DNA of 59,003 nucleotides from Pseudooceanicola sp. HF7 (GTDB lineage: Bacteria > Pseudomonadota > Alphaproteobacteria > Rhodobacterales > Rhodobacteraceae): the NCBI RefSeq assembly GCF_011806405.1, contig NZ_JAATOW010000026.1, positions 1 to 59,003 of the forward strand, given 5' to 3'. Positions 20,150 through 24,095 of this stretch are shown in pieces. Numbering within the stretch: position 1 is the stretch's first letter; each line of letters opens with the position of its first letter. Made by a program: the position numbers and the translations under genes. Under the pieces are notes generated by a model. The model made no database searches. It saw only the letters and a program-made list of their open reading frames with translations, and was not told the origin of the DNA.

Positions 20150-20824
20150 CTACCCTTCCACGCGCACTTCCGCGATGGAGGGGTCGAGCCGCCGGGCCGC
20201 CGCCGTCAGCCGCGCCTCGAAATGGGTCGCCACGTAATTGGCATGGAAGGCCGAAGGCGCGGTCAGCACCAGCCGCCCCTGCCCCACCGTGACCTCCGCC
20301 AGACCGTGGAACCACGCGCCGTAAAGCACCTTGTCCTCTTCGAACAGCCGCGCCTGGATGCGCGCCCACAGCCCCTGGCCCTCTGGCGCTTCCGCCGGGC
20401 GCAGTGGCACGACGTTGCCGGGCTGCGGCGCGCTTGCCGTGGGGCTGAGCCGTTCGACGAAATCCTCTCCGATCAGCGGCCAGGCCGGGCGCGTGTCCTC
20501 CAGCATCCGGTCCAGGTCCACGCCGTAGACGCTGAGCCGCCCGCGCGCGCCCTTCTGCTTCTGGATCAGCCAGCCCATGGCGCGAAAGGCCGCCATCTCC
20601 CGTTTCACGGTGCGCTCGTCAACGGACCAGAGTCGCGCGATTTCGCGCTGGCCCACGCAAAGCTCATCCCGTGCCCAGTTGTAGCGGGCGGTGATCAGCG
20701 CCATGATCCGCATGACCCGGCGCTGCAGGATCCGGTCGCCCGCCAGGGCAAAAGCCATCAGCGCAGACAGGATATCGTATTTGCGTGACGCGGCCTGCCG
20801 TCCCACCGGCTTGGGAAGCTGCAT
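20150..20824 (-). CDS. DnaA-like plasmid replication initiator
   Basis: 224 residues from ATG 20824, with AGGAGAG five bases upstream; the open frame further right lacks a ribosome site. The N-terminal half carries a helix-turn-helix (REIARLWSVDERTVKREMAA, about 77-96, then FRAMGWLI), fit for binding origin repeats. The C-terminal 70 residues (LWARIQARLFEEDKVLYGAW, VTVGQGRLVLTAPSAFHANYV) match the DnaA N-terminal domain pattern W-x-x-I...F-x-x-W...L-x-L-x-x-P-x-x-F. This arrangement, without an AAA+ core, fits the DnaA-like replicase of Rhodobacterales plasmids (established type). Divergent from parA across a candidate origin, so it initiates replication of this replicon. Confidence 0.8.
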   Translation of the reverse strand: MQLPKPVGRQAASRKYDILSALMAFALAGDRILQRRVMRIMALITARYNWARDELCVGQREIARLWSVDERTVKREMAAFRAMGWLIQKQKGARGRLSVYGVDLDRMLEDTRPAWPLIGEDFVERLSPTASAPQPGNVVPLRPAEAPEGQGLWARIQARLFEEDKVLYGAWFHGLAEVTVGQGRLVLTAPSAFHANYVATHFEARLTAAARRLDPSIAEVRVEG

Positions 20825-21100
20825 GTCTCTCTCCTGTCGCCGCCCGTTCCGGGCAGATGCCTCGATCCCATTGCGGGCTGAAGGGCCCCTGCCCTGCCGC
20901 GCCGGTGACGGGGGTGCGCACCTCGGATCTTTCCGAAGCTTCCGATCCCGAGTCTTTTGACCTCTGGTGATCGGAGCGTTCCCAACGCCTTTCCTCAACT
21001 TGCCTGCATTAACGTCCGGTCGTCCGATTCTGTCAAGTCGACTCCGCCGGGCGGGGATCGGCCAACCCAATTCCAATTCGTAAGAATGGGTATCAATGGT

Positions 21101-21183
21101 ATAGGGTGACAGATCCTTGTGTCCCCTATTCAGCCCCTTTTGTCCCCCAATGCCTAGCGGTGGCAAGGCGGATGTCCCCCAAT
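21101..21183. repeat. TGTCCCC iterons
   Basis: Three direct copies: TGTCCCCTATT at 21120, TGTCCCCCAAT at 21141 and 21173, spaced 21 and 32 bp (two and three helical turns). An inverted, less perfect copy, ATAGGGTGACA, lies at 21101-21111. Phased repeats next to an initiator gene are expected binding sites for its helix-turn-helix. Confidence 0.6.
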
Positions 21184-21262: not shown

Positions 21263-21284
21263 AATCTTCCCCGCGGGAAAGGTT
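21263..21284. repeat. 22-bp palindrome, copy 1 (candidate parS)
   Basis: AATCTTCCCCG followed by its near-complement; two differences from the consensus AACCTTCCCCG/CGGGGAAGGTT. Lies in the origin region about 94 bp before parA. Confidence 0.7.
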
Positions 21285-21315
21285 TTGCCATGGGTGCGCA
21301 TACTCTAATTCTACT

Positions 21316-21332
21316 TTTGCCTTTTTGGCAAA
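21316..21332. promoter_or_regulatory. Inverted repeat before parA
   Basis: TTTGCC-TTTTT-GGCAAA, 45 bp upstream of the parA ATG in AT-rich DNA. ParA proteins with an N-terminal DNA-binding extension often autoregulate, so this is a possible operator; the same hairpin could instead be a weak terminator. Confidence 0.35.
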
Positions 21333-21377
21333 TCCGGCGTATTTCTGAAAAAGAGCAGTTTTTACGTTGAGGCTTTC

Positions 21378-22673
21378 ATGTACGACCATACAGACCTCGC
21401 TCGGCTCCAGGCACAATCCCTGAAGATGCAGGGCTGGATCCGGCAGCAGACCTTTAGCCCGGAGAATACCAAGACCCTCCGTCGCTTCTCTTCCTGGGAG
21501 GTGTCGGAGCTGATCTTCCGCATCAACCAGTCGACCTTCCGCGGGCGGCTTGCGGCCGATCCCTCCCTGCCCGGTGGCGAGGTGGAACAGGACGGCCGGC
21601 AGCGCTGGTACTCTCTTGAAGAGATCAACGAGCTGCGGCGCCGGATGAAGATCAACCGCAAAAGCCTGATGCCCCCCCGCCCCGCCGGCAAGCGCGCCCT
21701 GCGCGCGGCGGTCGCCAACTTCAAGGGCGGCGCGGGCAAGTCGACCGTGGCGCTGCACCTGGCCCATGCCGCCGCGCTGGATGGCTACCGGGTTCTGCTG
21801 GTGGACTTCGATCCGCAGGCGACGCTGAGCCACTCCATGGGCCTGACCGACGTGGCCGAGGATTACACTGTCTGGGGCATCATGGCCCGCGACCTGATCC
21901 GAGAGACGGACCGGATGAACTCTGCCGTGACCGGGGCGGCCTCCGGTACCGCCCTGCCCCAGCGAAAGATCCCGGCCTCGATCCGGGACATGGGGCTGGA
22001 CGATCTGAGGCACGCCGACTTCATCAAGCCCACCGCCTGGTCGACGATCGACATCATCCCCTCCTGTGCCAATGCGGCCTTCGTCGAATTCGCCAGCGCC
22101 CAGTACCGGCACCTGAACCCGGAGTGGACCTTCTTTGCGGCCGTCTCCCGGTACCTCGACGGGATCGCGGACGATGATTACGACCTGATCATCTTCGACT
22201 GTCCGCCCGCCATCGGCTACCAGTCGATGAACGCGGTATTTGCGGCGGACATGCTCTATATCCCCTCCGGCCCCGGCTACTGGGAATATGACAGCACCAC
22301 CTCCTTCATCGGTCAGCTGGCCGAGGCCTTGGAGGATCTGTCCCACGGCTTCGGCGAAACCTTCCCCGCGGGGAAGATTTCCCTGCCCAAGGCCTTCGTC
22401 GATATTCGCTTCCTGATGACCCGTTACGAGCCCGGGAACGACCTGCACCGTGCGATGCTGGAAGCATTCCGAAAGGTGTTTGGGGATCATCTGACAGAGC
22501 ACCCGATCGAGATGACGCGCGCGGTGGAGCAATCCGGACGCTTCCTCGCCTCTGTCTACGAGATCGATTACCGCAACATGACCCGGGAAACCTGGCGGCG
22601 GGCCCGCACGAGTTTCGACCGGGCCTACGAAGAGTTCCGTGCCAGCGCCATCGCGGCCTGGGACAAGATCTGA
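21378..22673 (+). CDS. parA: Partition ATPase ParA (type Ia, with N-terminal DNA-binding extension)
   Basis: 431 residues. The first ~105 form a helical, MerR/HTH-like extension (RRFSSWEVSELIFRINQSTF, RWYSLEEINELRRRMKIN), as in type Ia ParA/RepA proteins that autoregulate. Deviant Walker A KGGAGKST at 116-123, Walker A' LLVDFDPQATLS (about 138-149) and Walker B LIIFDCPPAIGYQSMNA near 273-289. It forms ATP-dependent gradients on nucleoid DNA and moves ParB-bound plasmid copies. Codons 327-334 (TFPAGK) are made by a copy of the 22-bp palindrome, a site not expected in the protein family. parB follows after 13 bp. Confidence 0.93.
   Translation: MYDHTDLARLQAQSLKMQGWIRQQTFSPENTKTLRRFSSWEVSELIFRINQSTFRGRLAADPSLPGGEVEQDGRQRWYSLEEINELRRRMKINRKSLMPPRPAGKRALRAAVANFKGGAGKSTVALHLAHAAALDGYRVLLVDFDPQATLSHSMGLTDVAEDYTVWGIMARDLIRETDRMNSAVTGAASGTALPQRKIPASIRDMGLDDLRHADFIKPTAWSTIDIIPSCANAAFVEFASAQYRHLNPEWTFFAAVSRYLDGIADDDYDLIIFDCPPAIGYQSMNAVFAADMLYIPSGPGYWEYDSTTSFIGQLAEALEDLSHGFGETFPAGKISLPKAFVDIRFLMTRYEPGNDLHRAMLEAFRKVFGDHLTEHPIEMTRAVEQSGRFLASVYEIDYRNMTRETWRRARTSFDRAYEEFRASAIAAWDKI
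22358..22379. repeat. 22-bp palindrome, copy 2, inside parA
   Basis: AACCTTCCCCG/CGGGGAAGATT, one difference from consensus. It is read through in frame as part of ParA. Confidence 0.75.
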
Positions 22674-22686
22674 GGAGGGCGAGCCA

Positions 22687-23799
22687 ATGGCGAAGAAGAG
22701 ACGCGTCTTCGATATCGAGATGCCCGAGGACGGGCTTGAGAAAACCTTCCCCGCGGGGAAGGTTTCGGACCCAGAGGAGCCATCGCGCCGGCGCGGCCCC
22801 ATGGCCACGGCGATCGGCGAAACCGCGGCCAGCGGGCTGGAGCGCCGCGCCGTGGAGGAACGGATCCGGGCCGAAAACGATGCGCTGGCCCATGAGCACA
22901 TGCGGCTCAAGCGGCTGGGCCTGGTCATGGACCTGGTGCCGCTGGATGCGGTGGAAACCTCCAAGCTGATCCGGGACCGGGCCAAGGCGCCGGACTTCGA
23001 TCTGAAAAGCCTGAAGGAGTCGATCACCTCGCTGGGCCTGTCGAACCCGATCCGGGTCGAGGCCGCGGGCGAGGGGCGCTATGAGCTGGTCCAGGGGTAT
23101 CGCCGGCTTTCGGCCTACCGCGAGCTTTTGGAAGAGACCGGCGATGAAGAGCGCTACGGCGCGATCCCGGCGGTGGTGACGGACAGCGGCGATGCGCTCG
23201 AGGTGCTTTACCGGCGCATGGTGGATGAGAACCTGGTGCGCAAGGATATCTCTTTCGCGGAGATGGCGCAGCTGGCCCTGGACTACGCCGCCGATCCGGA
23301 GACGAAGATCACCGATCCCGACAAGGCGGTGAAGGAGCTGTTCAAGTCGGCCGGCTACCAGAAGCGCAGCTATATCCGGACCTTCATCAAGGTGGTGGAG
23401 CGGCTGGGCGATCACCTGCAATTCGCCCCGGATATTCCGCGGTCTCTTGGCCTGGCGCTTGCGGCGCGGCTGGAAGAGGTGGAGGGGCTGTCGCTGGAAA
23501 TCCGAAAGGATCTGGCAGAGCTCGACAACCGGTCCGTCGTGGAAGAACTGGAGGTTCTGCGCCGCCATGCGGGCGAGCCGGTGGAGGCAACGGGCGCCGC
23601 ACCGAAGGTGCGAGCGCGCACGGCGCCGGGGCAGGGCAGCCGCGCGCGGACATCCTTCCAGTTCGAGCGGCGCGAGGGGCGGGCGAAATGCACCGCCGCC
23701 AATGGCAAGCTTGAGCTGCGTCTTGATCGTGATTTCTCTACCATCGACCGGCGCAAGCTGGAGGATGCGGTGAAGCGGATGCTGGACCAGCTGGATTGA
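22687..23799 (+). CDS. parB: Partition protein ParB
   Basis: 370 residues from ATG 22687 (GAGGAGGGCGAGCC-type ribosome site just upstream). ParB/Srx-like N-terminal domain: ITSLGLSNPIRV (about 116-127), GRYELVQGYRRLSAYREL (about 133-150; the G-x-R-R CTP-binding patch), then a helix-turn-helix region containing DENLVRKDISFAEMAQLAL and KRSYIRTFIKVV, and a C-terminal dimerisation tail. Binds centromere sites and forms a sliding CTP-dependent clamp (family knowledge). Codons 19-26 (TFPAGKV) come from a perfect copy of the 22-bp palindrome, so ParB may bind within its own gene. Confidence 0.92.
   Translation: MAKKRRVFDIEMPEDGLEKTFPAGKVSDPEEPSRRRGPMATAIGETAASGLERRAVEERIRAENDALAHEHMRLKRLGLVMDLVPLDAVETSKLIRDRAKAPDFDLKSLKESITSLGLSNPIRVEAAGEGRYELVQGYRRLSAYRELLEETGDEERYGAIPAVVTDSGDALEVLYRRMVDENLVRKDISFAEMAQLALDYAADPETKITDPDKAVKELFKSAGYQKRSYIRTFIKVVERLGDHLQFAPDIPRSLGLALAARLEEVEGLSLEIRKDLAELDNRSVVEELEVLRRHAGEPVEATGAAPKVRARTAPGQGSRARTSFQFERREGRAKCTAANGKLELRLDRDFSTIDRRKLEDAVKRMLDQLD
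22743..22764. repeat. 22-bp palindrome, copy 3, inside parB
   Basis: Perfect consensus AACCTTCCCCG/CGGGGAAGGTT, extended to 24 bp by flanking A and T. Lies 56 bp into the parB reading frame. Confidence 0.8.
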
Positions 23800-23800
23800 A

Positions 23801-23822
23801 AACCTTCCCCGCGGGGAAGGTT
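23801..23822. repeat. 22-bp palindrome, copy 4
   Basis: Perfect consensus copy beginning 2 bp after the parB stop codon, flanked by AA and TT. The hairpin with following T's could also serve as a weak terminator. Confidence 0.8.
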
Positions 23823-23899
23823 TGAGGGTGAAAATGACCCCCGGATGGCCTGGCCCTCCGGGGGTCTTTCTTTGTGGCGGTGCCGGTCTGCGCGCCCCG

Positions 23900-23921
23900 G
23901 ATCTTCCCCGCGGGGAAGGTT
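23900..23921. repeat. 22-bp palindrome, copy 5
   Basis: GATCTTCCCCG/CGGGGAAGGTT; two differences at the left end. Confidence 0.75.
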
Positions 23922-23994
23922 TTCCGCCGGTTCGGGGCCTCCGGGCGGGCCGGATGTGCCGGGAGATGGGGGTGCTGGGGGCGCTGCCCCCCAC

Positions 23995-24025
23995 GCCCTG
24001 TGCCCCCTCGACGGGGGCGCAGGGC
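23995..24025. terminator. Strong GC hairpin, possible terminator after parB
   Basis: GCCCTGTGCCCCC pairs with GGGGGCGCAGGGC across a TCGAC loop: 13 pairs including one G-T. There is no T-run directly behind it, so it may be a factor-dependent terminator or a structural element of the centromere region. Confidence 0.45.
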
Positions 24026-24026
24026 G

Positions 24027-24060
24027 TTCCCCCCGGAGTTTACCGGCAAGAAGAAGGAGG
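24027..24060. repeat. Rhodobacterales-type intergenic repeat, copy 1
   Basis: CCCCCGGAGTTTACCGGCAAGAAGAAGG-like sequence; the GGAGTTT-x-CCGGCAAGAAGAAGG part recurs at 30259-30286. Similar intergenic elements are common in Rhodobacterales genomes (general knowledge, not checked here). Confidence 0.5.
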
Positions 24061-24073
24061 GAAGGGGCGCCAA

Positions 24074-24095
24074 GACCTTCCCCGCGGGGAAGGTT
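24074..24095. repeat. 22-bp palindrome, copy 6
   Basis: GACCTTCCCCG/CGGGGAAGGTT, one difference from consensus. Last copy on the right. Confidence 0.75.

Follow-up and report, generated by a model that had tools for sequence, protein, structure and literature searches.

Palindromes within and around parA and parB of a putative DnaA-like Rhodobacterales replicon: a probable multi-copy centromere that covaries with its ParB

INTRODUCTION

Among the closest described counterparts of the element studied here, a 22-bp palindrome (AACCTTCCCCGCGGGGAAGGTT) repeated in and around the parA and parB genes of a Pseudooceanicola sp. HF7 contig (NZ_JAATOW010000026.1, whose 59,003 nucleotides are called the window throughout), are the parS sites of repABC plasmids of Rhodobacterales. 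In Rhodobacterales, the diagnostic repABC palindromes are class-specific and act both as RepB anchors and as compatibility markers (PMC5613091), two such groups being told apart by a single reciprocal exchange (PMC5613091, PMC9040568). Some of these parS sites lie within coding sequences, and in Rhizobiales some are found at the 5′ end of repB (PMC9040568). The resemblance lies in short class-specific palindromes that are read by RepB or ParB and are partly located within coding sequence, whereas the palindromes themselves (TTAACAG/CTGTTAA and the like) and the operon differ, and a mid-parA site is kept here in 112/116 related loci.

In Streptomyces coelicolor, the coding sequence of the parB-like gene of the SCP2 parT-parS system contains parS, an inverted repeat of 18 bp, as documented by ChIP-seq and binding (PMC12260392). 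This system differs from the present locus in that ParT is CTP-independent and in that one intragenic site is mentioned for that gene. An earlier annotation of the window (the original prediction) had held that centromeres normally lie outside the partition genes. This is only partly right, since intragenic parS sites are described for SCP2 (PMC12260392) and for repABC (PMC9040568). The parABS system of IncC plasmids comprises 14 inverted repeats spread over the plasmid, four of them in open reading frames (ORFs), and three tested sites bind ParB; the genomic element SGI1 carries copies of the site and uses the ParAB of the IncC plasmid (PMC10954446). Replicon and host are different there, and the parasitism shown for SGI1 is only a possibility for the scattered copies described below. 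Concerning specificity, a few residues around the helix-turn-helix (HTH) of ParB and Noc set the DNA site, the two families differing at 4 residues, and G170, K171, S172 and R173 are among the parS-contacting residues of Caulobacter ParB (PMC7383237). The present case involves several palindrome classes within one plasmid family, which track ParB residues 240 and 241.

The gene set of the locus, a putative DnaA-like replicase with parAB, appears to be that of the DnaA-like type I replicons of Rhodobacterales; the name type I follows the literature rather than a classifier. In Petersen et al. (2011), conserved palindromes in the replication modules of DnaA-like replicons were reportedly regarded as probable centromeric anchors. 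Our literature search, which did not cover that study and reached other papers in part, found no description, for DnaA-like replicons, of palindromes located within either partition gene. The function itself is not new; what is added here is the conserved intragenic placement, the concerted switches between palindrome classes and the residue code in ParB, none of which we claim to be unpublished. From sequence comparison we propose, at a probability of about 0.88, that the palindromes are a multi-copy parS centromere belonging to a replicon of the DnaA-like type (type I) of Rhodobacterales, and that they are under selection within coding sequence and co-evolve with ParB. Their presence, position, synonymous constraint, concerted variation and covariation with ParB are computational observations.

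RESULTS

Six copies of the palindrome in the par locus

With up to 3 mismatches allowed, AACCTTCCCCGCGGGGAAGGTT had 6 matches in the whole window against 0 in a control of 100 dinucleotide-preserving shuffles, and a chance origin of the six copies was rejected on this ground. No strand is assigned to them. The first (21263..21284, 2 mismatches) lies upstream of parA and is a candidate site for ParB and autoregulation. The second (22358..22379, 1 mismatch) spans parA codons 327-334 and reads TFPAGKI, and the third (22743..22764), located in the 5′ part of parB, has 0 mismatches and reads TFPAGKV. Another perfect copy (23801..23822, 0 mismatches) follows parB directly on its 3′ side, where two more are found at 23900..23921 (2 mismatches) and 24074..24095 (1 mismatch). 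The original prediction had placed six palindromes at these positions, two of them perfect and none with more than two mismatches, had noticed TFPAGK(V) in frame within both genes and had seen no other copy in the window; all of this was borne out at the threshold used.

The palindromes keep their places while their sequence differs between clades

Related loci were retrieved with ParB from named genome contigs (the best 80 of 186 stretches encoding a relative; the one in Pseudooceanicola nanhaiensis DSM 18065 is 73% identical), and 80 more were hand-picked across identity bands from an order-wide listing of 292 genomes, 174 of which have a ParB relative at E ≤ 1e-12. These 160 fetched loci, three relatives from the HF7 genome and the window gave 164 loci, in which palindrome families were sought de novo and motif-free. 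The counts below refer to the type I set, namely the 116/164 loci whose ParA shows an identity of ≥ 70% across > 350 residues; the other 48 do not enter them.

In the window clade, the de novo search returned CTTCCCCGCGGGGAAG at parA codons ~66 and ~330, at parB codon ~40 and 3′ of parB. Other clades carried different arms at equivalent places (TGTCCCC, CTTACCC, CTTATCC, TTTCCCC or GTTCCCC). Distant relatives with a replicase match (ParA 61-63% identical) mostly had GTTACCC or GTAACCC arms 3′ of parB, and GTTTCGCGCGCGAAAC was often present in relatives without a replicase match; several loci in both of these distant groups yielded no palindrome family.

A place was scored as occupied when it matched the word of the locus's own class with no more than 2 deviations, and 77 window-clade and 38 other loci were scored in this way (L090, which has no class, was omitted). 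The late parA site (~330) was present in 76/77 and 34/38 loci, respectively, and by pairing alone, with at most 2 bad pairs, a palindrome was recognised there in 112/116. The site in the N-terminal part of parB or at the parA-parB junction occurred in 74/77 and 14/38 loci, that 3′ of parB in 66/77 and 29/38, the early parA site (~66) in 67/77 and 6/38, and the site upstream of parA in 22/77 and 32/38. The window itself has lost the early site (codons 64-69) and has three sites 3′ of parB: at 21567..21582 (no strand) it carries a decayed version of the palindrome that 67/77 window-clade loci retain, CTG CCC GGT GGC GAG G aligning with CTT CCC GGC GGG GAA G. The omitted locus L090, on a Donghicola mangrovi contig, has window-clade parAB with Y240 but neither a DnaA-like replicase match nor palindromes of any class. 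Close to it are TTGACAGCTGTCAA palindromes and another, distant ParA.

Synonymous positions are constrained at the parA site

Codons 328-332 show the highest excess synonymous identity in parA, with 0.417 in the 77 window-clade loci (mean 0.090, standard deviation 0.081; 412 five-codon windows). The same codons also rank first in the 38 other loci, with 0.461 (mean 0.064, standard deviation 0.073; 364 windows), and codons 62-69 form a synonymous peak in the window clade only. The encoded peptide tracks the palindrome class, being FPAGK or FPTGK, VPAGT, LPTGK or LSADK. A second constrained stretch, around ACC GCC CTG CCC, was observed in both subsets at parA codons 190-195 (21945-21962 in the window).

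Sites of one locus change together

The parA copy was compared with the palindrome family outside parA in the 95 loci where a parA copy exists and that family has two or more members; the remaining 21/116 are without one of these and were uncounted. The mean was 0.82 mismatches per 16 positions, as against 2.36 after shuffling, with a minimum of 1.88 in 2000 shuffles. For 31 distant loci, the mismatch sum was 29 compared to 118 when shuffled (minimum 76 in 5000 shuffles). The class inside parA agreed with that outside in 90/91 loci assigned on both sides. The exception, L138, has GTTCCCC outside and a parA copy that is still TGTCCCC-like, and its neighbour L139 has GTTCCCC outside sites and an unassignable parA copy. 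These two loci are natural intermediates in which the parA copy lags after a class change. A ParA tree was built by a quick method, after removal of the site columns, from 65 of these 116 loci and 5 outgroup rows (70 rows in all; 31/67 inner branches open). It requires a minimum of 5 class changes for the sites outside parA and of 4 for the site within it.

Palindrome class covaries with ParB residues 240 and 241

Residues 240 and 241 of ParB (numbering of P0002; 224 and 225 in the structural model) are encoded on the plus strand at 23356..23361 as Y240/Q241, at the predicted start of the recognition helix, and covary with the palindrome class. In the 115 labelled loci, residue 240 matched bases 1-2 of the palindrome without exception (115/115), Y accompanying CT (92/92), R accompanying TG or GT (19/19) and P accompanying TT (4/4). 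Residue 241 was Q or N in 101/104 loci with C at base 4 and S or T in 11/11 with A at this base. When 358 columns were ranked in a set thinned to 38 distant and 12 window-clade loci, residue 240 came first, with 0.59 for class and a normalised mutual information of 0.88 for bases 1-2 (next column, 0.50).

An AlphaFold model of ParB (32 sequences) has a mean predicted local distance difference test score (pLDDT) of 75.3, with ten-residue means of 88-94 over 211-250. It contains a helix at 211-218 followed by a helix at 224-243, which residues 224/225 open, and residue 240 is predicted to be the first residue of the HTH recognition helix. Noc, KorB, ParB and Spo0J structures were retrieved by Foldseek with this model (best E 3.3e-07), with poor whole-chain superposition (TM 0.20-0.32 by query for chains with E ≤ 0.001). 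The HTH assignment rests on the model, because a sequence search of PDB with the ParB profile covers the N-terminal part only. From an alignment made by eye, and not from a tool result, we tentatively match residues 240/241 to K171/S172 of Caulobacter ParB.

Genes of the locus

parA (21378..22673, plus strand) encodes a protein of 431 aa (P0001) that matches AAA_31 (E 1.7e-26), has Soj/ParA as its PDB relatives and carries a KGGAGKST motif, which we take to be a deviant Walker A motif. parB (22687..23799, plus strand) encodes 370 aa from the ATG at 22687 and matches Pfam ParB_N (E 1e-05, 25.9 bits; curated cut-off 26.3). Three features expected of a ParABS (type I) partition system are found here: a ParA with a deviant Walker A motif, a ParB with a ParB_N fold and HTH, and cis palindromes near parAB that are conserved among relatives. 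The gene of the putative DnaA-like replicase (20150..20824, minus strand) is divergent from parAB; its start at ~20824 is an internal Met of P0003, the mechanical ORF covering 20150-21166, and its product matches Pfam DnaA_N (E 5.2e-05, 23.3 bits; curated cut-off 24.6). Replicase relatives adjoin most type I parAB loci. Between replicase and parA, at 21110-21183, iteron-like direct repeats with TGTCCCC (at 21110, 21131, 21141 and 21173) were observed and may be origin sites; a sister palindrome class uses TGTCCCC as its half-site. An AlphaFold model of ParA has a mean pLDDT of 61.0, with values below 50 in segment 328-369, so that no placement of the FPAGK segment was drawn from it.

Copies outside the par locus

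The search of the whole HF7 genome (4.27 Mb, 74 contigs) that the original prediction had suggested returned the exact 16-bp core eight times, five at the par locus and three elsewhere, one each on contigs C37, C48 and C69. Allowing 1 mismatch added the 21263 site and one place each on C15, C24 and C32. Copies off the par locus include C37:141706, C48:126273, C69:128851 and C32:14001, the last with a GT centre. A second close ParB was not found in this genome, where the remaining relatives are 31-37% identical. Two ParB relatives of this genome bear other words (GTTTCGCGCGCGAAAC at L098, CTTAACAGCTGTTAAG at L099), and L097 yielded no family.

In the 292 genomes, par copies included, CTTCCCCNNGGGGAAG (the CTTCCCC word) and TGTCCCCNNGGGGACA (the TGTCCCC word) were each found in 35/292, G162 alone being in both lists; two control palindromes of like composition were found in 0/11 genomes. 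Single copies occurred in seven genomes for CTTCCCCNNGGGGAAG and in three for TGTCCCCNNGGGGACA. The largest counts were 58 for CTTCCCC (G237) and 97, 82, 28 and 26 for TGTCCCC (G259, G174, G181 and G285, respectively). The scattered copies of these five genomes are at loci L192-L206, L207-L224, L227-L244 and L184-L188. In G259 and G174 the word at the par locus is the scattered word, and the ParB of G174 has R240 as predicted.

These distributions raise the idea that in some hosts the centromere word has been seeded genome-wide, bare palindromes of the resident class, some as doublets at fixed spacing, providing extra ParB loading sites through which the plasmid's ParB might organise, segregate with or regulate the chromosome, or be titrated by it. 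A ParB relative (E ≤ 1e-12) is encoded by 32/32 genomes with at least two TGTCCCCNNGGGGACA and by 27/28 with at least two CTTCCCCNNGGGGAAG, compared to 174/292 overall, which speaks for this idea. The exception G286, with ten copies and no ParB match, and G237, with 58 CTTCCCC copies and the par words GTTCCCC and TTGTCC, count against it, and we consider it unlikely, though worth keeping in mind. A congener of G286, G222, has the word at its par locus (L104). In G237, at L225/L226 (C24 and C12), a more intact ParB with K240 stands beside two GTTCCCCGCGGGGAAC (GTTCCCC) and a second, stop-broken ParB-like frame with Y240 and Q241 stands beside two ATTGTCCGCGGACAAT (TTGTCC). G272 has three core doublets (L181, L182 and L183, on C2 and C14) spaced 53, 53 and 52 bp start to start, with unlike sequence between.

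DISCUSSION

A ParB dimer would, in the mechanism that we propose, bind the palindromes through its HTH, which would contact the half-sites of 7+7 bp in CTTCCCC-NN-GGGGAAG, Y240 and Q241 at the start of the recognition helix specifying the outer bases and base 4. ParB would load as a clamp at these sites, within its operon and next to it, and partition would follow from movement of the ParB-site complex by ParA, a Walker-type ATPase. Through the copy upstream of parA, ParB or ParA-ParB may repress the operon as well. In a lineage that switches class, the intragenic site would change jointly with the sites outside genes and with the recognition residues of ParB. Use by ParB of sites in its own operon, one of two possibilities raised by the original prediction, receives indirect support from positional conservation, synonymous constraint, concerted class changes and covariation with the recognition helix.

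Several observations weigh against this reading. Four of the 116 loci (L060, L090, L102 and L104) are without the parA-330 palindrome, which is therefore dispensable. The non-palindromic codons 191-195 of parA come close to codons 328-332 in the 38 other loci, with a synonymous excess of 0.449, so that such an excess alone is no proof of a ParB site. Classes are mostly distributed by clade and the shuffles of the mismatch test ignore relatedness; the covariation therefore rests on ~4-5 independent changes and not on 116, and for 18/115 loci the class was read off the parA copy alone or set by hand (L122). R240 accompanies two words, TG and GT, and a ParB of G237, which is not among the 116, combines K240 with GTTCCCC palindromes, from which it follows that more than residue 240 is needed to determine the word. 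Residue 241 has exceptions in 3/104 loci (S with C at base 4, in L017, L032 and L081), and for this base column 272 (0.85) outranks it (0.68). Finally, the Pfam scores for ParB_N and DnaA_N are slightly under the curated cut-offs.

The second possibility raised by the original prediction was a mobile palindrome of the repetitive extragenic palindrome (REP) or miniature inverted-repeat transposable element (MITE) type, inserted repeatedly at this locus and retained as coding sequence. Bare palindromes are indeed scattered in G237, G259, G174, G181 and G285, and in the parts read with crude gene calls (C3 of G237, 5 sites with 1 inside a predicted gene; positions 1-360000 of C1 of G259, 13 sites with 5 inside), 9/12 intergenic copies lie 10-55 bp past the end of a predicted plus-strand gene. 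The dispersed copies examined by eye are, however, without evident common flanks, each word is absent from 257/292 genomes with carriers mostly holding few copies, and equivalent places hold different palindromes in different clades. Comparison of ParA homologues, proposed earlier as a way to recognise TFPAGK as an insertion, showed no clean gap: the nearest palindrome-free ParAs align gap-free at the site, where they have GLAEDAGITLPK-type sequence instead of ETFPAGKISLPK, and at codon 66 the palindrome falls on an LPxG motif common to nearly all listed palindrome-free ParAs (L099 is without the motif and L135 has no sequence there). The gap-free alignment and the common motif therefore make the sites look like substitutions. 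Mobile insertion at the par locus is unsupported and we hold it to be very improbable, but the idea stays alive for other genomes in view of their scattered bare copies. A role as RNA hairpins in the parAB transcript (attenuators, terminators or stability elements) is a little less probable still. A perfect inverted repeat could fold, and one minus-strand terminator-like prediction overlaps a copy at 22748-22760. Among 508 sites (299 within genes, 209 elsewhere; the 7+7 arms pair perfectly in 396), though, deviations of the G.U type, which an RNA hairpin would favour, were not in excess (29, against 36 of the A.C type and 66 others), and this fits a DNA site. Hairpins would also not need the sites of one locus to change sequence jointly, nor do they account for sites located upstream, downstream and within genes or for a palindrome that covaries with a residue of the ParB recognition helix.

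The same covariation bears on the question of which protein reads the sites. The sites flank the putative origin and a replicase accompanies most parAB loci, so that another protein of the module, such as the DnaA-like replicase or ParA acting as a repressor, might bind them in place of ParB. Yet it is residue 240 of ParB, which opens the predicted recognition helix, that covaries with the outer bases in every labelled locus, and sites within and after parB would suit ParB loading; we regard a different binder as improbable. It is scarcely credible, lastly, that a conserved FPAGK-type segment is kept for the protein's sake and that its codons are palindromic by chance. FPAGK is the window-clade consensus in both ParA and ParB, but synonymous positions are constrained beyond codon bias, identical words recur outside coding sequence and, from locus to locus, the peptide varies in step with the palindrome found there in non-coding DNA.

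Retained as parts of a parS centromere, the sites in parA and parB would mean that the DNA dictates a short peptide, FPAGK here and VPAGT, LSADK or LPTGK elsewhere. This would be a clear natural case of a centromere encoding a piece of the very protein by which it is moved, and one where the palindrome, the coding sequence and the recognition helix of ParB appear to have switched together ~4-5 times. The intermediates L138 and L139 offer material for testing how centromere specificity evolves. The joint switches suggest a two-residue ParB-parS specificity code, from which compatibility groups might be predicted by sequence for a plasmid type common in Rhodobacterales.

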